Source: an uncultured Prochlorococcus sp. (GTDB taxonomy: Bacteria > Cyanobacteriota > Cyanobacteriia > PCC-6307 > Cyanobiaceae). From it: a stretch of 45,382 nt of DNA. The translations under genes and the position numbers were made by a program. Below are positions 3-45,345 of the stretch, in pieces (position 1 is the stretch's first letter; each line of letters opens with the position of its first letter). Location: assembly GCA_902563335.1 (NCBI GenBank), contig CACEWU010000009.1, positions 1 through 45,382 on the forward strand. The letters run 5' to 3'. The notes under the pieces are model-generated. The model did no database searches, had not been told where the DNA came from, and saw only the letters and a program-made list of their open reading frames with translations.

Positions 3-89
3 AGGGATTGTTTTTTACCGCTGATTGCGGCTGGCCTCTTCTCGGGAAGGAGCGTTGCTTCGCCTGGCAGGGCTACTTCCAACTGTTGA
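3..89 (+). CDS. Possible C-terminal end of a gene cut by the window edge
   Basis: One forward frame is open from the left edge to a TGA at 87-89 and reads as a short hydrophobic then small-residue tail (PLIAAGLFSGRSVASPGRAT). It could be the end of a membrane protein whose body lies outside the window. A second frame stays open to about 166 but its composition is unlike a protein. About 28 residues are too few to name a family. From 90 to 318 I see no gene; 180-318 is T-rich and must hold the queF promoter and leader. Confidence 0.3.
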   Translation, partial: RDCFLPLIAAGLFSGRSVASPGRATSNC

Positions 90-318
90 ACCATCGACAA
101 TCTCGACGGAACAGCTCAACGTTTTGTCCTTCAACTAATTTTCTAGATGAAACTTGGTGTTCATGGTGAACTTTTTGAGTATTCTTTTCTTAAGTTTTAA
201 TAAAAAGGTGTAATTGCGCACTCTGTAGGCTTGTTTGAGTTTGTTTCTTTTTTTTTGATTTTGTAGTTAGGGTTCTTTGAGCTTTAGGTTTGTTTGAGGC
301 AGGGTTGGTTTTTTTTAC

Positions 319-4292: not shown

Positions 4293-5501
4293 ATGATGTC
4301 AATCTTACCTGATTCAAATAAGCTCGTAACAGCTCTTGTTAGTGACTTTTATAATCGTTTCCCTTATCCCCCAGATCAGCTGAAGGAGGGGCCCCCTCCT
4401 GGCTCTAACTGGAGGTGGTCGGTTGATGCAGTATATGCAGCTTGTACAGGATCTATTGCTCCAGTAGTTGATCCAATGGAACCAATAAGAATCCTTGATG
4501 CTGGTTGCGGTACTGGGGTAAGCACAGATTATTTGGCCCATCTAAATCCAGGTGTAGAGATTCTTGCAGTAGATATCTCGTCAGGGGCACTTGAAGTAGC
4601 ACAGGAGAGAGTGCGTATGTCTGGAGGCGATGAATTGGCAAATATTACTTTTAAGAATCAGAGCCTTTTAGAAATTCAGAATGAAGGTACCTTTAACTAT
4701 ATAAACTCTGTAGGAGTTTTACATCATTTAAATGACCCGTTAGAGGGTATCAAATCTTTGGAATCTCTTCTTCGATATGGTGGCATTTTGCATTTATTTT
4801 TGTATTCAGAAGGAGGACGCTGGGCCATACAACGTGTTAAGAAAGCGCTTAGTCTTTTAGGAATAGACAGTGAAGAAGATAATATCAAATTGGCTCGTAG
4901 ATTGTTATCTGAGCTTCCTCTTGATAATGATATAAGGATGAATTATGAAAAACATTGGGAGCTTGAATGTAGTTCAGATGTTGGTTTTGCAGATACATAT
5001 TTTCATCCACATGAAGCTAATTATAGCTTTAAAAAACTTATGAATTTGATAGATTCGACAAGTCTTGAATTTATTGACTTTTCCAACCCTAGAATATGGG
5101 ATTTGGAGAGATTTTTAAAAGGGGATATATTATTGAAGGCAAAATCAATGAATAGAATCAAGCAATATGAGTTAGTGGAAACTTTAGACCCTAATATTAA
5201 TCATTTTGAGTTCTTTCTTTCCAAAGGTAATCTTCAAAGATATGAATGGAAGGAGGACGAACATTTGCTTTCAGCTAAAGCTAAAATCAACCCTTGTATC
5301 TTAGGGTGGCCTGGTCATAGTTTGTATGATTCGGATCTGAACCAAATTGAAATATCTGCTGATTGTTTAGAACTTTTGAATACTCTAGAAAAAAAAACCG
5401 GAACACCTCTTGGTTTATTGCCTATTAGTTTAGAAAAGGATCAGATCACTTCTCTTGCAAGGGATTTGCATGCTAAGCAGGTTCTTCTGCTCTATCCATA
5501 G
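4293..5501 (+). CDS. Class I SAM-dependent methyltransferase with long C-terminal extension
   Basis: The N-terminus FYNRFPYPPDQL (19-30) resembles a leader seen on some cyanobacterial methyltransferases. It is followed by SAM-binding motif I ILDAGCGTG (67-75), an acidic motif II (ILAVDIS) and a post-motif SVGVLHHLNDP near 138-150, all typical of the methyltransferase 11/12 fold. The fold ends near residue 190; the remaining 210 residues match nothing I can name, so the substrate is unknown. ATG codons at 4293 and 4296 are both usable. It ends 13 bp before the likely atpI start and may be read through into the ATP synthase cluster, but nothing links it functionally. Upstream, 4022-4292 is AT-rich and shows no gene. 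Confidence 0.8.
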   Translation: MMSILPDSNKLVTALVSDFYNRFPYPPDQLKEGPPPGSNWRWSVDAVYAACTGSIAPVVDPMEPIRILDAGCGTGVSTDYLAHLNPGVEILAVDISSGALEVAQERVRMSGGDELANITFKNQSLLEIQNEGTFNYINSVGVLHHLNDPLEGIKSLESLLRYGGILHLFLYSEGGRWAIQRVKKALSLLGIDSEEDNIKLARRLLSELPLDNDIRMNYEKHWELECSSDVGFADTYFHPHEANYSFKKLMNLIDSTSLEFIDFSNPRIWDLERFLKGDILLKAKSMNRIKQYELVETLDPNINHFEFFLSKGNLQRYEWKEDEHLLSAKAKINPCILGWPGHSLYDSDLNQIEISADCLELLNTLEKKTGTPLGLLPISLEKDQITSLARDLHAKQVLLLYP

Positions 5502-6849: not shown

Positions 6850-6892
6850 CCTGATCATTCATGCCAACTTCTATTTGATTGTCTGGCAAACT

Positions 6893-6958
6893 CCTTGCGC
6901 TTAGGTCCGGTTTAATCCGGGCCCATCTCAGGATTATGTGAGATGTCCCAGGCGCAGG
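6893..6958 (+). ncRNA. Predicted three-stem RNA structure between atpB and atpE
   Basis: Three nested or adjacent inverted repeats fit one fold: an outer stem CCTTGCGC (6893-6900) with GCGCAGG (6952-6958, one bulge), a small hairpin CCGG-TTTAAT-CCGG (6907-6920), and a 7-bp hairpin CATCTCA-GGATTATG-TGAGATG (6924-6945). A TATAAA follows at 6960. It is likely part of the atpE leader or an intercistronic processing/stability element that lets atpE be made in excess, as c-ring stoichiometry requires. It could also be an attenuator or a small RNA. It does not match any named RNA family I know. Confidence 0.5.
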
Positions 6959-34337: not shown

Positions 34338-34511
34338 TCAATCCTTGACCTCAATGATCTCGTAATAAGGACGGTCCTCATAGTCAGCATCTGAGCAGCA
34401 CATATCCCCGTAGATCTCCTCTAGTAATTCATAGGCATCGTCGTAGTTAGCAAAGCTCTGCGAGGTGATGTGGTCCTCTTCTCCATCGTGTCTGGTGATG
34501 AGGTATCTCAT
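34338..34511 (-). CDS. Small acidic protein, family copy 1 of 3
   Basis: The 57-residue soluble protein MRYLITRHDGEEDHITSQSF... is rich in Asp, Glu and Tyr (YDDAYELLEEIYGDMCCSDA, then DYEDRPYYEII), with a CC pair near residue 37. No family is recognised; the length and near-identity with copies at 36764 and 43628 make coding certain in practice. ATG at 34511 is chosen over an upstream in-frame start, because all three copies align from this point. It is 7 bp after the small membrane protein gene, forming a two-gene cassette. Confidence 0.8.
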   Translation of the reverse strand: MRYLITRHDGEEDHITSQSFANYDDAYELLEEIYGDMCCSDADYEDRPYYEIIEVKD

Positions 34512-34518
34512 TTCAGCT

Positions 34519-34707
34519 TTAATCTTTCCTTGTATGTATTTGCCCAAAGAGCTTTTCTATACGTAGTTGAATTGCATACATCTGAGTTCGATCAAAGAAA
34601 TATCTTTCGCCTTTGTTGTTTTTGACGATCGAAAGCAGCACATAAAGCTGTAAGCCGAGGAAGATGAGTCCAACTAGTACCAGAATCGAATAAGGATCGC
34701 TGAACAT
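34519..34707 (-). CDS. Small membrane protein, cassette copy 1
   Basis: The 62-residue protein has one N-terminal membrane helix (SILVLVGLIFLGLQLYVLLSIV, about 7-28) and then a basic cytoplasmic tail ending RTQMYAIQLRIEKLFGQIHTRKD. It is nearly identical to the copy at 36945 over the helix and whole tail. No family is recognised. The pairing with the acidic protein in both copies suggests a basic membrane anchor with an acidic soluble partner (inference). Confidence 0.75.
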   Translation of the reverse strand: MFSDPYSILVLVGLIFLGLQLYVLLSIVKNNKGERYFFDRTQMYAIQLRIEKLFGQIHTRKD

Positions 34708-34820
34708 TGAGTGACCGACTTCCCGTGCACTTCCTTTCTAGCTGTTTTCAGAGGCTCTTGATTAGATAGTCTGTTCATGGAGGGGAAAGCAGCAGGTTAT
34801 GCGCATTCCGTTTAAAACTT

Positions 34821-35216
34821 ATGGCTTCTAAAGAAGAGGGCTCTGATCCCTTCGAGAATTTCAGCGAGGAAAAACTAACAGAGATTGTCAAGGCGAGTGA
34901 TGCCTTGGATCAGGCAGAGTCGAGAAGAAGAAATGAAGAGAATGAGGAAGAAGAAAAAAGAAGATCTGAGAAGAAACCGTATCGCCGATTAAGGAAATCG
35001 CCTCTTGAAATGTTTAATCGATCTTTATTTCTTCTGTTCTTAGGTAGCTTTCTCTTCTCATTTGTTTCTGTTTACGCAACAAGTCGTTGGTGGTTCTTCT
35101 GGTATCTGATCAGTGCTTTTTCCTGCATTTTGTATACACCAAATAGAAGAGCTCTTAAAGAATTGCTAGATGCTTGGCCAAATATTGTGGATCTAATAAA
35201 GGGTCCTACCAAATAA
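34821..35216 (+). CDS. Two-helix membrane protein with highly charged N-terminus
   Basis: The 131-residue protein has a Glu/Arg/Lys-rich, probably coiled N-terminal 65 residues (EEKLTEIVKASDALDQAESRR...), then two membrane helices at about 68-88 and 90-106, and a short tail. No family is recognised. It is divergent from the membrane/acidic cassette with 113 bp between. Repeat copy B lies 95 bp downstream. Confidence 0.65.
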   Translation: MASKEEGSDPFENFSEEKLTEIVKASDALDQAESRRRNEENEEEEKRRSEKKPYRRLRKSPLEMFNRSLFLLFLGSFLFSFVSVYATSRWWFFWYLISAFSCILYTPNRRALKELLDAWPNIVDLIKGPTK

Positions 35217-35400
35217 GTGAGATGCTTATTTCTATTGCATTGCAAGTTTGGATAAAGTTTGGATAGAAATTCCTGATTCGCTGAGATCGGTTGCTATCAC
35301 CTAAAGGGAACTTTTCATTAGCCAGTAGTTAATTTCAGTCATATCAAGAGATCTCCAGGAAGTGTGGTGTGTGAATAATGTGTGAATGAGATAGCCACTG
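35217..35400 (-). repeat. Repeat copy B plus a separate right-arm fragment
   Basis: The core CTTTTCATTAGCCAGTAG is exact at 35311-35328 and continues as TTAATTTCAGTCAT, i.e. the EVE start codon context. Before it, about 35246-35267, two TTTGGATA units 11 bp apart match the right arm of other copies, so this gap holds pieces of two repeats. GTGTGGTGTGTGAATAATG (35381-35399) resembles the left arm. Apart from these pieces, the 322-bp gap 35217-35538 has no gene. Confidence 0.75.
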
Positions 35401-35538
35401 GCTTTTAAAGAGATCAGTTAGCGAGGGCTTTCCCCCATTAGAAGGTTTTGATCATTTTAAGTTTGATAGCTCACAAAAGATATGCTTTTCCTATAGGTCC
35501 CACTAGTTTCTTTTAGAGGAAGACGCAATCGCACTTAA

Positions 35539-36021
35539 ATGATGAAGGCTCTTAGATACGTTGCTATAGCAGTTCTCCTTTTGTTTATTCAATTAACCCC
35601 TAAACCTGCGATAGCTTGCGTGGAAGGTTTGTCGTGGGGAATGGATCTCTCCAGTGTAGAGAGACATCTTGGGGTTTCCTTGACTCCTGTTCAGGAAGAT
35701 GTGAATAGGGGTCTTTTTGAAGTTAGAGATTTTCAGATGAGCGGTTTACCTGTGAATAGTCTTCGTGCTCGTGTTGAAGAGAAGGATGGCCTGAAACAGC
35801 TTGCTTATGAAATGGACTATGCAAACATGACTGAAGTATTGGCAGGCTTACGACATCGTTTTGGTCCTCCGGTTGGAACAAGTGTTGATGTTGACGGAAG
35901 ATCGCCTCAACAACAATGGATTTGGCATACAGGAGAAGATGTGATTACTGCAGTCAAGAGTGAACAAAGACCTTTCTTACTTTCTTATCGACCATCACTT
36001 TTAGACCCTTCTTTCCTTTGA
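35539..36021 (+). CDS. Secreted protein of unknown function
   Basis: The protein has 160 residues. The N-terminus MMKALRYVAIAVLLLFIQLTPKPAIA is a signal peptide (basic start, hydrophobic core), with likely cleavage after AIA and a Cys next; the context is not a strong lipobox. The mature part has a repeat-like domain (WGMDLSSVERHLGVSL, LRHRFGPP) that resembles small periplasmic fold modules, but I cannot name it. It stands alone between repeat copies B and C, so it is probably a single-gene island module. Confidence 0.7.
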   Translation: MMKALRYVAIAVLLLFIQLTPKPAIACVEGLSWGMDLSSVERHLGVSLTPVQEDVNRGLFEVRDFQMSGLPVNSLRARVEEKDGLKQLAYEMDYANMTEVLAGLRHRFGPPVGTSVDVDGRSPQQQWIWHTGEDVITAVKSEQRPFLLSYRPSLLDPSFL

Positions 36022-36029
36022 AAATGTGT

Positions 36030-36215
36030 GAATAGTGTGTGAATGGATTTTGCAAATTCCTTGTAATCGTTTTCAGTCACTCAAATGCACTTGTTCATTA
36101 GCCAGTAGCAGATATTCTCAGTCATGCCAAGGGGCTTGGGCGAAAATGGACGGTTTGAGTAAAGCTTGAGTAAACCTTCAATCTGGTTTTTGGTTTTTTC
36201 TATTGTCGCTCAAAT
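36030..36215 (-). repeat. Repeat copy C (most complete)
   Basis: The left arm AGTGTGTGAATGGATTTT... CACTCAAATGC (36034-36088), the core TTCATTAGCCAGTAG (36094-36108, with a G in the first part) and the right arm TCAGTCATGCCAAGGGG, TTGGGCGAAAATGG, then TTGAGTAAA twice with 11-bp period (36155 and 36166) are all present. It fills most of the gap between the secreted protein gene and the CBS gene. Confidence 0.78.
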
Positions 36216-36289
36216 CCACCAATTGCAAGAAGGGAATTGACTTGGGTGCTTGTGGTAAATACTGGATTCATATCTAGTTGATTTGAGGT

Positions 36290-36760
36290 TTAGGGTTCTT
36301 CCTTGGCAAGAGCCCTAATCACATCACCTCTTGTAAGGATTCCTACTGGTCTTTGCTGGGCATCGATTACAAATAATCGTTGTGTTTCGCGTGCGTTAAG
36401 CATTGCGGCGGCTTTTGCCAGCGGCAATGTCTCTTTACAACTGTGGGTATCCCTACGCATAAGGTCTTTAACAGTGTTGCCAAGTACTTGATGCACTTGC
36501 TTGTCCCAGTTGAGGGGATTGCGCAAATAAATCACGCTGTCTAGCAACAAAACATATGGACCAGCATCAATGCCACTTTCACGCACCATCAAATCTTGTT
36601 CAGTGATTTCCCCTATAAGTTGCTCTTGCTCGTTCACAACTGGAAGTCCACTGACGTGGTTCTCGCTAAGCAATTGAACAGCTTCTTTTAAAGCTGTCGC
36701 AGGTAAAACTGTGATAACTGGGCTTGACATGAAGTCCTTCACGATTGTCTGGGAGACCAT
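36290..36760 (-). CDS. Stand-alone CBS-pair protein
   Basis: Two CBS motifs fill the 156 residues: VKDFMSSPVITVLPATALKEAV... LPVVNEQEQLIGEIT and VKDLMRRDTHSCKETLPL... RLFVIDAQQRPVGILTRGDVIRAL. CBS pairs bind adenine nucleotides and sense energy state; stand-alone cyanobacterial and plant ones can modulate thioredoxin or other targets, which is only a possibility here. It begins 3 bp after the stop of the acidic ORF copy 2, so it is the last gene of the second cassette's transcript. Confidence 0.88.
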   Translation of the reverse strand: MVSQTIVKDFMSSPVITVLPATALKEAVQLLSENHVSGLPVVNEQEQLIGEITEQDLMVRESGIDAGPYVLLLDSVIYLRNPLNWDKQVHQVLGNTVKDLMRRDTHSCKETLPLAKAAAMLNARETQRLFVIDAQQRPVGILTRGDVIRALAKEEP

Positions 36761-36763
36761 GAA

Positions 36764-36937
36764 TCAGTCCTTCATTTCGACAACTTCATAGTAAGGACGG
36801 TCTTCATAGTCAGCATCAGAGCAACTGATATCTCCGTAGATCTCCTCTAGCAAGTCATATGCATCATCGTAGTTGTTGAAATCTTGAGAGGTGATGTCGT
36901 CTTCTTCTCCATCGTGTTTCTTAATAAGGTATCTGAT
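36764..36937 (-). pseudogene. Small acidic protein, copy 2, start codon lost
   Basis: The same 57-codon frame as copy 1 is present and fully open (RYLIKKHDGEEDDITSQDF... CSDADYEDRPYYEVVEM), ending in TGA at 36764-36766. The codon aligned to the ATG of copy 1 is ATC (36935-36937), with an in-frame TGA right before it. No ATG, GTG or TTG follows until a TTG halfway. Either it is a recent pseudogene, or it uses a rare ATC/ATT start by coupling to the membrane gene that ends 7 bp upstream. The body shows no decay. Confidence 0.7.
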
Positions 36938-36944
36938 TCAGGAT

Positions 36945-37133
36945 TTAATCCTTCCTCGTGTGTATTTGCCCAAAGAGCTTTTCTATACGCAGTTGAATCG
37001 CATACATCTGAGTTCGATTAAAGAAATATCGCTCACCTTTGGTGTTCTTGAAGATTGAAAGCAGCACATAAAGCTGTAAACCCAGGAAAATGAGTCCCAC
37101 TAGAACCAGAGCCGTATAGGGGTCGCCAAGCAC
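36945..37133 (-). CDS. Small membrane protein, cassette copy 2
   Basis: The 62-residue paralogue of the gene at 34519 is nearly identical from residue 10 to the end (LVLVGLIFLGLQLYVLLSIF... FGQIHTRKD), with differences mainly in the first ten residues. It starts with GTG at 37133 where copy 1 has ATG. Similarity continues into the upstream region (AGCTAGAAAG in both). It leads an apparent transcript with the acidic ORF copy 2 and the CBS gene. Confidence 0.75.
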   Translation of the reverse strand: MLGDPYTALVLVGLIFLGLQLYVLLSIFKNTKGERYFFNRTQMYAIQLRIEKLFGQIHTRKD

Positions 37134-37289
37134 TGAATTTCTGATTTTCTGCGCACTCTCTTTCTAGCTGTTCTAGATAAATATTCCTTTTAATTGAAGT
37201 AAATAGGAGTTTGAGCTCGTTAGTGTAAAAAATAAGAGCTGGACTCAAAGGGGAACATCGAAATACGTCCTCCTTCTTCATGTCTAAAA

Positions 37290-37511
37290 ATGTCCTTACG
37301 TCATCCCCTATTTCATCGAACGATTTTGGCTCTTCTTTTAGATATCCAAGAGTCAGGGTATGAACCCCCAACATTGGAAAATAGAAAAGCTTTCCAAGAT
37401 GAATTAATCCAAGAACTTGAAGAAGGGATTCTGCCGATCATTGAAAAAAGTTGCTATCAAAACCCTTCACTGACAAGGAATGATCAAGAATCAAATTTCC
37501 CTAAGTGTTGA
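37290..37511 (+). CDS. Small protein of unknown function
   Basis: The 73-residue ORF MSLRHPLFHRTILALLLDIQESGYEPPTLENRKAFQDELIQELEEGILPIIEKS... has a helical, natural-looking composition up to residue 55 and a less regular tail. A minus-strand frame (37033-37374) overlaps it but is a shadow of the membrane gene region. It is divergent from the cassette. No family is recognised. Confidence 0.5.
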   Translation: MSLRHPLFHRTILALLLDIQESGYEPPTLENRKAFQDELIQELEEGILPIIEKSCYQNPSLTRNDQESNFPKC

Positions 37512-37545
37512 ATGGCGGCTTTTTTGACTCTTTAGAAATCAACGA

Positions 37546-37675
37546 AAAGTGTGTATTTAGTTTGTATTTATTTTAGCGATTCCTCCAAATCCCTGCCCAC
37601 CACTCAAGCGCCGCTTTTCATTAGCCAGTAGGAAGTATCAGTCATAGCAGAGGTTTTGGTCAGATCACGTTGTGG
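37546..37675 (-). repeat. Repeat copy D
   Basis: The core CTTTTCATTAGCCAGTAG at 37614-37631 is exact, followed by TATCAGTCATAGCAGAGGTTTTGG from the right arm. The left arm is divergent (GTGTGTATTTAG near 37550, CCACCACTCAAGCG near 37598). The double 11-bp unit of the right arm is missing, so this copy is truncated. It lies in a 365-bp gap, 37512-37876; the rest is AT-rich and holds no gene I accept. Confidence 0.7.
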
Positions 37676-37876
37676 GTGGATGGATTAATATTCTCACCCT
37701 ATTTCCTTTATTCTTTTTTAATCAAGTTTTGATTACTAATAACCATTAGATTGCAACTGAAAGAAGAAATATAGACTTTAAAAAATAGTTGAAAAGAATG
37801 TAAAAGTTCGATTCCAGGAAATATCATCAGTATTTGCTCAAAAAACTCAAAAAAATACAGGCTGATTGCTTTACAT

Positions 37877-38609: not shown

Positions 38610-38795
38610 TTAATTAGCCAGTAAAGATAAAATAAGAGTGGTGTGTATGGATTTTAGGAATTCCTTCTAATCGCAGTTCACCACTTAAATTTCGCTTTTC
38701 ATTAGCGATTAGGAGATACCCTCATTCATAGCAAGGGTTTTGGGCGAAAAGTGGTAGTTTGGATAGAGCTTGATAGACACTCGATTTCCTGAGAT
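38606..38795 (-). repeat. Repeat copy E with an extra core remnant
   Basis: A core remnant TTAATTAGCCAGTA is at about 38610-38623. A full copy follows: left arm GTGGTGTGTATGGATTTT (38639-38656), core CTTTTCATTAGCGATTAG (38695-38712, divergent right half), right arm TCATTCATAGCAAGGG, TTTTGGGCGAAAA, and TTGGATAGA/TTGATAGA with 11-bp period at 38759 and 38770. It closes the module with the NTF2-like and DUF3764 genes and opens the nitrite module. Confidence 0.75.
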
Positions 38796-39552: not shown

Positions 39553-40464
39553 TTAGCGTGCACCAAGTTCTGCTGCTAGTTCTCGTTCCAGCTTTTCATC
39601 ATGAACTATTGGCAGGACATTGGACATCTTGGTGCGATGTGTGCTGTAGAAGAGCATGCCTATAAAAACCATTCCTCCAATAATGTTGCCAACAGTAACT
39701 GGCAGGAAATTCCAAAAAATAACCTTACTGAAGGGCACTCCAGAGCCAAGAAGAGGCCCTGCTGTATGCAAAAACATGTTTACAACAATGTGCTCCATGC
39801 CCATTGTTTGGAATGCAGTAATTGGTAGCCAACAAGCAAGAAGTTTTCCTGGAACACTTTTACTTACTAGAGCCATTGTGACTCCAAGACATACGAGCCA
39901 GTTAGCAATAACACCTCGTATAAATGCCAGGAAAAGTCCAGTGCTTCCAAGAGATTCATACTTAATAAGAACATTTGATTGATTTATAGATATCAGTTTT
40001 GATGCAACAACGGCCCATCCTTTGCCTCCTTCCGCTGCAGATAAAGGATCAATAGTTCCTGCGCTTGTCAAACTAATTGAAAGTAAAACTGCTACTAGAA
40101 ATGTGCCTAAGAAATTACCTATCCAGACCCAACCCCAATTTCTAAATGTGGCTTTCCAGGAGGATTTGCCCGCCCAAGTTGCCATAGGCAATAGAGCAAA
40201 ATTTCCAGTAACTAGCTCCATACCAAAAAGCACTATGCTTGCAAATCCAAACGGGAAAATAACTGAACCAAGGAAAGGCATCCCAGATTGAATACCTACA
40301 GTTATTGCTAGACATGTAGCTAAACCAAGTATTGCTCCAGAGTAAAAACCTCTTACCAGTAAGTTTTTTGTACTTACAGTAGATTTTTTTCCACCAGCTG
40401 CAATCATTCCATCGACTAATTCATTAGGGAGGACATAATCCATTTGTGAGGTGTTTGCATCCAT
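39553..40464 (-). CDS. focA: Formate/nitrite transporter family channel (nitrite uptake)
   Basis: This is a FNT-family pentameric channel subunit of 303 residues with six membrane helices. FPFGFASIVLFGMELVTGNFALLP (around 85-108) and GVIANWLVCLGVTMAL, plus MGMEHIVVNMFLHTAGPLLGSG, are family signatures with the conserved pore His in NMF-like surroundings. With nirA upstream on the same strand, the substrate is most likely nitrite; formate cannot be excluded by sequence. It is flanked by a small ORF (upstream) and the HEAT-like gene (downstream). Confidence 0.9.
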   Translation of the reverse strand: MDANTSQMDYVLPNELVDGMIAAGGKKSTVSTKNLLVRGFYSGAILGLATCLAITVGIQSGMPFLGSVIFPFGFASIVLFGMELVTGNFALLPMATWAGKSSWKATFRNWGWVWIGNFLGTFLVAVLLSISLTSAGTIDPLSAAEGGKGWAVVASKLISINQSNVLIKYESLGSTGLFLAFIRGVIANWLVCLGVTMALVSKSVPGKLLACWLPITAFQTMGMEHIVVNMFLHTAGPLLGSGVPFSKVIFWNFLPVTVGNIIGGMVFIGMLFYSTHRTKMSNVLPIVHDEKLERELAAELGAR

Positions 40465-40505
40465 GTTTGGAAAAATGATTGTTTTGGAAATGTTTTTAAA
40501 TTGAT

Positions 40506-40649
40506 TTATTTACTAATGCGATTCATTATCCTTGAAAAAGGATCTTTACTTCCGCCTTGACGATTAATTAGTGGACGGTCACTTCCAAATTCACTTAGCC
40601 AATTGACAATGCGACTAAAGAAATCAGTTGAACTGGATTTAAATTGCAT
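40506..40649 (-). CDS. 47-residue ORF between nirA and focA
   Basis: An ATG at 40647-40649 opens a frame ending with TAA at 40506-40508: MQFKSSSTDFFSRIVNWLSE... DRPLINRQGG... FSRIMNRISK. It has an amphipathic start and two similar DFFSRIVN/PFSRIMN segments. It fills the space between nirA (40 bp away) and focA (41 bp away), where a 225-bp gap would otherwise be odd inside an operon. No Shine-Dalgarno is clear and no family is recognised. Confidence 0.45.
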   Translation of the reverse strand: MQFKSSSTDFFSRIVNWLSEFGSDRPLINRQGGSKDPFSRIMNRISK

Positions 40650-40689
40650 GGTGAAGTTAATAAATGATTGTGTTTTAGGTAAAAGCAGC

Positions 40690-42294
40690 TTATGGAGGAT
40701 GACTGCTTTTACCTAATTGCCGAATCCAATCAATAATTTGCGTTAAAGCAATAAATTTCTCAGAGGAATTCTTGGTCTTTGGAATTGCAGAGTAATTTTC
40801 AATCAATAATTTTTTTAATAGATTCTTTAATTCAGCAGTAGGAACTGATTTATGTTTTAACTCTCCTATCTTTTGATTTGGTCCTTGTTCTCCTCCAATG
40901 GATATGTCATAAGCCTCAATCATTTCCCCATCAGCATTTCTAGCTTTTGTCCCGGTCAGGCCTATTGCTCCCATATAGGCTTGACCACAACTATTGGGAC
41001 ACCCTGTCCAGTGAATCTTTAATTCTTCAGGTAAATCAATTTCTGAGTCAAGCTCTTTAGATATCTTTAGAGCCTGGTCTTTAGTATTTGTCAAAGCAAA
41101 ACTGCAGTAGTTACTACCTGTACAAGAGACAGTTCCTGCCGCTATTGTTTTTGGGCTCAAAGGAAATTTCTTTAATAGATGATCAGCTTTAAAACTATCA
41201 ATTTGATTGTCTGGAATATTAATTATGATCACATTTTGATCTTCAGTAAGACGAACTTCACCGCTCCCATATGTTGCACTTATGCCGGCTAAATCTTGAA
41301 TTTCCTCTGCAGAAAGCCGACCTACTGGAATATTTATGCCTGCATAGTTAAGTCCTAACTGCTTTTGAGGATGGACCCCAAAGAACGAACGTGGTTTTTG
41401 TGAAAATATAGAACCAGGGTCTGGAATAAGTTTCCCAAATTTATCTTGAACAAGATTTCTAAAATTTTCTACGCCCACTTTATTTAAATAGAATCTAAAT
41501 CTTCCTTTAGGTCGTTTATAACGTTCTCCACCATCGCGCCAACTAGATATAACTACTCCTGTGAAATGACAAATTTCATGTGGTTTAATCCATACATTAA
41601 GAGGAATAGCGTAGTCATTTAATTGAGAAGAAAGAATTCCTCCAACCCAAACACTAAAACCAAGCTCCCCTTCTTTTATAACTGGGTGAAAAATAATGTC
41701 ATTATGCAAAAGAAAGTTATCATGTGAACCTGCTACTGCAGTATTCCATTTTCTTGGCAAATTAGAAAATTCAGAATTTCCTTCTCCATTCTTAGTTAAG
41801 AAATTTTCCAACTCCAAAGTATATTGCCTGGTATCTATAATTTCTTTCGGATCGATTCCTGCTAATGGATTACCTGTGACATTTCTTGGGTTATCAAACC
41901 CTGATTGGATAGTTTCTATATCAGCATCTTTTAGGCGTCTAAGAATTTCAGGTAGGTCACTAATAAGAATTCCACGGAGTTGGAGATTTTGCCGTGTAGT
42001 GATATCGCAACTTCCATCTTCTGCATAACGAGCAACAATAGATGCAATTACATTTAATTGATGTGCATTTAGTATTCCATTAGTTACTCGTAAACGGAGC
42101 ATGAATTTTCCTGGTGTTTTAGGCCGCCAGAACATTCCATACCATTTCAAGCGAAGTTCTAAGTCCGTTTTGTCCATTTTCTCCCAACCGATCTTGGCAA
42201 ATTCTTCTATTTGACTACCTAATAGAAGCCCATCTTTTATAGCTTTATTCTTTTCTATTCTATTTAATTTCTTCCCTTCTAAATACGGTTTCAT
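40690..42294 (-). CDS. nirA: Ferredoxin-nitrite reductase
   Basis: NirA reduces nitrite to ammonium with six electrons from ferredoxin, using a 4Fe-4S cluster bridged to sirohaem. The 534 residues include two ferrodoxin-like half-domains (LRVTNGILNAHQLNVIASIV; the repeat near GRLSAEEIQDLAGISATYG), the anion-site residues RQNLQLRGI, and the cluster cysteines in CTGSNYC (C-X5-C, near 400) and GCPNSCG (C-X3-C, near 440). No nitrate reductase or molybdopterin genes are in the window, so this strain probably assimilates nitrite at least; nitrate use is not shown. Two NtcA boxes lie upstream. Confidence 0.96.
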   Translation of the reverse strand: MKPYLEGKKLNRIEKNKAIKDGLLLGSQIEEFAKIGWEKMDKTDLELRLKWYGMFWRPKTPGKFMLRLRVTNGILNAHQLNVIASIVARYAEDGSCDITTRQNLQLRGILISDLPEILRRLKDADIETIQSGFDNPRNVTGNPLAGIDPKEIIDTRQYTLELENFLTKNGEGNSEFSNLPRKWNTAVAGSHDNFLLHNDIIFHPVIKEGELGFSVWVGGILSSQLNDYAIPLNVWIKPHEICHFTGVVISSWRDGGERYKRPKGRFRFYLNKVGVENFRNLVQDKFGKLIPDPGSIFSQKPRSFFGVHPQKQLGLNYAGINIPVGRLSAEEIQDLAGISATYGSGEVRLTEDQNVIIINIPDNQIDSFKADHLLKKFPLSPKTIAAGTVSCTGSNYCSFALTNTKDQALKISKELDSEIDLPEELKIHWTGCPNSCGQAYMGAIGLTGTKARNADGEMIEAYDISIGGEQGPNQKIGELKHKSVPTAELKNLLKKLLIENYSAIPKTKNSSEKFIALTQIIDWIRQLGKSSHPP

Positions 42295-43627: not shown

Positions 43628-43801
43628 TTATTGTTCGACCTCAGCTATTTCATAGTAAGGGCGGTCTTCGTAGTCAGCATCTGAGCAGCACATATCTCCG
43701 TAGATCTCCTCTAGTAAGTCATAGGCATCGTCGTAGTTGTCGAAATTTTGAGAAGTGATGTCGTTCTCTTCTCCATCGTGTCTGGTAATGCGATATGTCA
43801 T
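43628..43801 (-). CDS. Small acidic protein, family copy 3 of 3
   Basis: An unbroken 57-residue frame from ATG 43799-43801 to TAA 43628-43630 reads MTYRITRHDGEENDITSQNF... DDAYDLLEEIYGD, CCSDADYEDRPYYEIAE. It is collinear with copy 1 over its whole length. Unlike copies 1 and 2, it is not preceded by the membrane protein gene but by a frame-shifted acidic remnant whose zero frame ends in TGA overlapping this ATG. Confidence 0.8.
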   Translation of the reverse strand: MTYRITRHDGEENDITSQNFDNYDDAYDLLEEIYGDMCCSDADYEDRPYYEIAEVEQ

Positions 43802-43926: not shown

Positions 43927-43963
43927 TTTCACTTATTTATCAATCGGTACTTATTAAAGAAGA

Positions 43964-44090
43964 ATGGTGTGTATGGATTTTTCAAATTTCTTGTAACCGC
44001 TTTTAGCCACTCAAATGCTGCTTTTTATGAGCTAGTATGAGACATCATTCATGGCAAGTATTTTTCAGCGAGAGTTTTGGTAGAAAGGTT
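43964..44090 (-). repeat. Repeat copy F
   Basis: The left arm ATGGTGTGTATGGATTTTTC, TTTCTTGTAACCGC and TTTTAGCCACTCAAATGC (43964-44018) is the best-preserved left arm and the core is degenerate (CTTTTTATGAGCTAGTA at 44021-44037). The right arm is partial (TCATTCATGGCAAGT at 44047). It marks the end of the nitrite/DUF4278 module. Copy G, inverted, repeats the same left arm 1.25 kb further on. Confidence 0.72.
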
Positions 44091-45164: not shown

Positions 45165-45345
45165 TGCATAATTTCAATCAAAAGCCTGAAAGCGAGGGAT
45201 TAATTCAAACTCTATTCAAACCACCCATTTTTGCGCAAATCCATTGATATGACTGAAATTAATTGCTGGCCAATGAAAAGTGGCATTTGACTGACTGAAA
45301 GCGCTTACAAGAAATTTAAAAAATCCATTCACACCATTATTTTCT
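45165..45345 (+). repeat. Repeat copy G, inverted, at the far end of the island
   Basis: Here the EVE-derived piece is on the plus strand: ATGACTGAAATTAATTGCTGG at 45249 onward reads MTEINCWPMKSG then stop, against MTEINYWLMKSE of the EVE protein. Before it lie the right-arm units (TTGCGCAAATCC and TTCAAACTCTATTCAAACC with 11-bp period), and after it the left arm in reverse (GCGCTTACAAGAAATTT, AATCCATTCACACCATT, to 45336). All three parts are in the order expected for an inverted copy. Confidence 0.8.

Follow-up and report, generated by a model that had tools for sequence, protein, structure and literature searches.

The window analyzed here, 45,382 nt long, corresponds to contig 9 of a genome that is fragmented into 58 contigs and about 65% complete; the named relatives of this genome are single-cell genomes of Prochlorococcus. 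The window carries two pairs of small genes, each combining a membrane-type ORF with an acidic ORF, and both pairs lie on the minus strand with a 7-nt gap between the two genes (Table 1). This collinear, equally spaced arrangement was found where the original prediction had placed it, and the upstream homology that it had described runs on for about 45 nt ahead of the membrane genes. A third acidic copy, without a membrane gene beside it, is also present in the window and did not figure in that two-pair account.

Rereading of the sequence confirmed that the acidic frame of copy 2 has ATC in place of ATG, a stop just before it, and 57 open codons. An in-frame TGA directly precedes the ATC; another 56 sense codons follow before the frame closes at a stop, and reading it revealed no usable ATG, GTG, or TTG start. 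Conceptual translation of the frame includes the stretches ...KKHDGEEDDITSQDF... and ...GDISCSDADYEDRPYYEVVEMK..., both specific to copy 2. The membrane gene of this pair opens with GTG, the commonest start in its family (11 of 16 members).

Table 1. Features of the window (positions refer to the whole 45,382-nt stretch)
Feature	Position	Strand	Remarks
Acidic ORF, copy 1	34338..34511	-	57 aa, ATG start, intact
Small membrane-type ORF, copy 1	34519..34707	-	62 aa, ATG start, TAA stop
Acidic frame, copy 2	36764..36937	-	ATC at the place of the relatives' ATG; TGA stop; probable start-loss pseudogene
ATC codon at start position of the copy-2 acidic frame	36935..36937	-	
7-nt spacer ATCCTGA, from the copy-2 membrane stop TAA to the ATC	36938..36944	-	Identical in AG-409-B05
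Small membrane-type ORF, copy 2	36945..37133	-	62 aa, GTG start, TAA stop, intact
Third acidic copy, solo	43631..43801	-	56 aa, ATG start; 84% identity to copy 1
CBS-domain gene immediately downstream of copy 2	36290..36760	-	Within the same 98-99% identical block
Block shared with AG-409-B05	about 36250-37550		Copy 2, CBS-domain gene, and 73-aa ORF
REP repeat, one boundary of the copy-2 module	36022..36200	+	
REP repeat, other boundary of the copy-2 module	37540..37680	+	
REP occurrences	34153, 35314, 36094, 37617, about 38640-38770, about 43960-44058		
Inverted REP	about 45330-45205 (also given as 45205-45334)		
EVE-domain gene	34181-33708		5' coding end corresponds to the REP core
focA-like and nirA-like genes	39553-42294		Inside the repeat island
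Glutamine riboswitch aptamer	49-123	-	Rfam match
ATPC RNA motif	6864-6956	+	Rfam match

Searches of Pfam, NCBIfam, and PHROGs returned no confident family for either the membrane-type or the acidic protein. Viral contigs yielded only distant 22-residue matches to the membrane protein, and phage records yielded no match to the acidic protein. AlphaFold modelled the acidic protein as a strand-strand-helix-strand arrangement (mean pLDDT 80), and comparison of this model with the PDB gave no significant match. The Rfam matches in the window, a glutamine riboswitch aptamer and an ATPC RNA motif, all fall elsewhere than the copy-2 locus.

Sequence comparison of the two pairs revealed 82% identity in register over 300 nt, far beyond chance. 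The copy-1 module, taken together with an adjacent 131-aa ORF, shares about 91% identity with modules of two other genomes, over 1 kb with AG-409-P01 and over 0.9 kb with AG-363-C20. In a phylogenetic tree of 47 acidic genes, whose deeper branches are poorly supported, the copy-2 alleles formed a branch of their own (support 100) apart from copy 1, and the two acidic copies of the window did not pair. A recent local tandem duplication would leave the copies as mutual closest relatives, which copies 1 and 2 are not. With about 91% identity between copy 1 and the AG-409-P01 module but 82% between copies 1 and 2, the earlier description of a duplicated cassette is accurate as a statement of paralogy and fails as one of local tandem duplication. 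The two pairs are paralogous modules.

The same locus, with the same ATC, was identified in Prochlorococcus sp. AG-409-B05 (QCJK01000037.1; G021:C37, L082/L094). The bases around the codon (gaggaaggattaaatcctga/ATCAGATACCTT) are identical in the two genomes, and eight other sites of the copy-2 acidic frame differ between them. When an 851-bp query was searched against 399 genomes of the order, AG-409-B05 was the only further genome to carry the copy-2 locus. The original prediction had looked to related strains for an ATG at this position; no ATG version was found in our search of relatives, and the sole other genome with the locus has ATC. A sequencing, amplification, or assembly error at this codon, one of the options initially proposed, would be compatible with so fragmentary an assembly, itself compatible with a single-cell genome. 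However, the identical ATC and its identical context recur in an independent genome that differs elsewhere in the same frame, and the 10-13% difference of the surrounding regions argues against contaminating DNA common to both. We therefore reject sequencing error, which we consider highly improbable.

The window and AG-409-B05 agree at about 98.5% of positions across the segment that holds copy 2, the CBS-domain gene, and a 73-aa ORF, and identity falls from 98-99% to 87-90% beyond the bounding repeats. The segment can be read as a recently exchanged module. This drop in identity outside the repeats suggests that little time has passed since the two genomes had a common copy-2 block. No part of the block changes faster than the acidic frame, which differs at 8 of 174 sites compared with 15 of 1038 in the remainder (Fisher p = 0.011). 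Because six of the eight differences cluster within about 40 nt, gene conversion from an unsampled paralog could account for part of this excess. Both copy-2 frames carry T6K, C38S, and I52V, at positions where other acidic members have T6 in 36 of 45 cases and C38 and I52 in 42 of 45 each; private changes at conserved sites were found in the window (R7K, D21N) and in AG-409-B05 (E32K).

Copies 1 and 2 differ by 23 synonymous and 14 nonsynonymous changes (pN/pS 0.13); most of their divergence accumulated under coding constraint, and the start was therefore lost late. Between the two ATC alleles, four synonymous and four nonsynonymous differences were counted, and under neutrality the probability of at least four synonymous changes among eight is 0.07-0.21. 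A branch codon model gave an omega of 0.275 on the copy-2 branches against a background of 0.103. The model weakly disfavoured an omega of 1 on the copy-2 branches (2 delta lnL = 3.94, p of about 0.05), and these branches did not differ significantly from the background (2 delta lnL = 2.63). The copy-2 frame is open and without indels in both genomes, and its profile score of about 108 bits lies inside the range of intact, more distant members. Coding constraint on copy 2 thus appears weakened but not clearly gone. The expectation that a dead gene should decay proved too strong, since a neutral frame of this size would remain stop-free through eight substitutions with a probability of 0.66-0.87, depending on transition bias.

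Of 400 genomes of the taxonomic family, 248 contain a member of the acidic gene family. Among 50 members examined, 46 start with ATG, and both ATC cases belong to the copy-2 locus (the window and AG-409-B05). A CTA case has GTG three codons upstream. The ATA case is a solo acidic gene in G121 (L038:11018-11300, minus strand), which has become an in-frame continuation of the ORF upstream after that ORF lost its stop codon.

The acidic ORF downstream of a membrane gene is intact in copy 1, at one G051 locus, and in G078. At at least five loci besides copy 2, the downstream acidic frame is broken in other ways: by an in-frame TAA and a 6-nt insertion in G026, by truncation at one locus and internal deletion at another in G108, by truncation in G049 and G045, and by deletion at one locus of G051. 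Several genomes carry the membrane gene without an acidic partner, or the acidic gene without a membrane partner. Because so many loci are broken and the genes also occur singly, the two genes do not form an obligate pair, and the acidic partner is commonly lost. The missing start of copy 2 is in keeping with such repeated loss. Two further pairs in G051 (L036:2526-2838 and 4529-4893) represent the reverse of the window's copy-2 case, with the membrane ORF broken by an in-frame TAG and the acidic ORF open with ATG.

Two further ways of rescuing a product from the copy-2 frame were considered and rejected. The membrane and acidic frames are adjacent and out of register, so that the latter could be a frameshift extension of the membrane protein. 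However, the TGA immediately before the ATC would end an upstream shift unless it were read through, and this excludes the idea to near certainty. A canonical start inside the acidic frame is scarcely more credible: the window copy offers a single TTG, at codon 29, but this codon is TTA in AG-409-B05, which speaks against the candidate, and initiation there would drop the first half of the conserved protein.

A more substantial alternative is that copy 2 continues to yield its acidic protein in small amounts, with ribosomes that end the membrane gene re-initiating 7 nt downstream at the AUC, aided by the GAGGAAGG stretch ahead of it. The short spacing and the purine-rich stretch are kept, the ATC and spacer are the same in two genomes, and an omega below 1 is weakly favoured. 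ATC is retained in both alleles found, whose common block has diverged by about 1.5%. The classic gene of this kind is infC, which starts with AUU in E. coli, and copy 2 resembles such AUU/AUC-start genes in having a non-ATG ATN codon after a purine-rich stretch. It differs from them in belonging to a family without a known autoregulatory role or conserved codon use, 46 of 50 homologs having ATG. Among the ORFs read in this genome, infC itself starts with ATG, so no precedent for an ATT-type start is seen here. Coupled re-initiation is known for genes that lie close together (PMC12548453), and copy 2 has the layout of such translationally coupled pairs: the same strand, a short upstream gene, and a 7-nt gap from its stop. 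In coupled pairs, however, ribosomes are usually delivered to an NTG start, and copy 2 has none. AUC starts do occur in prokaryotes, at low incidence (PMC9845219), but the mechanism, although favoured by the short spacing, would need use of an inefficient codon where relatives with equal spacing use ATG. The faster change of the acidic frame relative to its neighbours, the loss of conserved residues, and the breakage of the same ORF at other loci also weigh against it. We therefore regard continued low-level synthesis as unlikely. It is similarly doubtful that the gene works through AUC re-initiation and has been retained because it supplies a lower dose than the other two copies. If AUC were used, copy 2 would represent a natural cyanobacterial case of coupling in place of a proper start codon.

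In our assessment, the copy-2 ATC frame is most probably a recent start-loss pseudogene. This reading is best supported because the block is of recent origin, change within it is fastest in the acidic frame, conserved residues are altered, and sister loci have been broken independently. Of the three explanations initially offered, recent loss thus emerges strongest and error falls away, and for coupled AUC initiation no positive evidence emerged. The start codon of the copy-2 acidic gene would have disappeared recently, in an ancestor common to at least two Prochlorococcus lineages, with the upstream membrane gene staying intact while the acidic frame drifts. The loss would be tolerated if the function is covered by the intact copy 1 and the solo copy; we infer that no protein is made from the copy-2 frame and that redundancy renders its loss harmless. 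Like bacterial start-loss pseudogenes in general, copy 2 combines a largely conserved homologous frame, which in both genomes lacks a permitted start at the position where homologs have one, with intact paralogs and broken sister copies. It is unusually tidy compared with that class, as the start is its only lesion so far and is common to two genomes. As a dead gene, copy 2 is ordinary; its wider interest lies in the repeated loss of one partner, with the other kept, among the small-gene modules of this Prochlorococcus island.

The more unusual observation is the surrounding island itself, where oriented repeats drawn from the 5' end of an EVE-domain gene lie between the modules. The repeat (REP) spans about 150 bp and bounds the copy-2 module on both sides, and its core, TTCATTAGCCAGTA, is the 5' end of the EVE-domain coding sequence. 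REPs separate small gene modules and lie nearly always in one orientation. Within this incomplete genome, REPs were found only on this contig. In complete genomes such as G031, G057, and G051, most REPs are gathered in a single region next to the EVE gene, the majority pointing the same way, and the modules between them are partly shared. No Phage_integrase domain was found near the REP cluster in these complete genomes. Judged from the sequence, the REP island looks attachment-site-like or recombination-driven. Modules could move by insertion or recombination at the 5' end of the EVE gene, which may explain why similar pairs recur. The island also encloses genes for a focA-like nitrite transporter and a nirA-like ferredoxin-nitrite reductase, named from sequence reading and synteny with G051 rather than from a family search.
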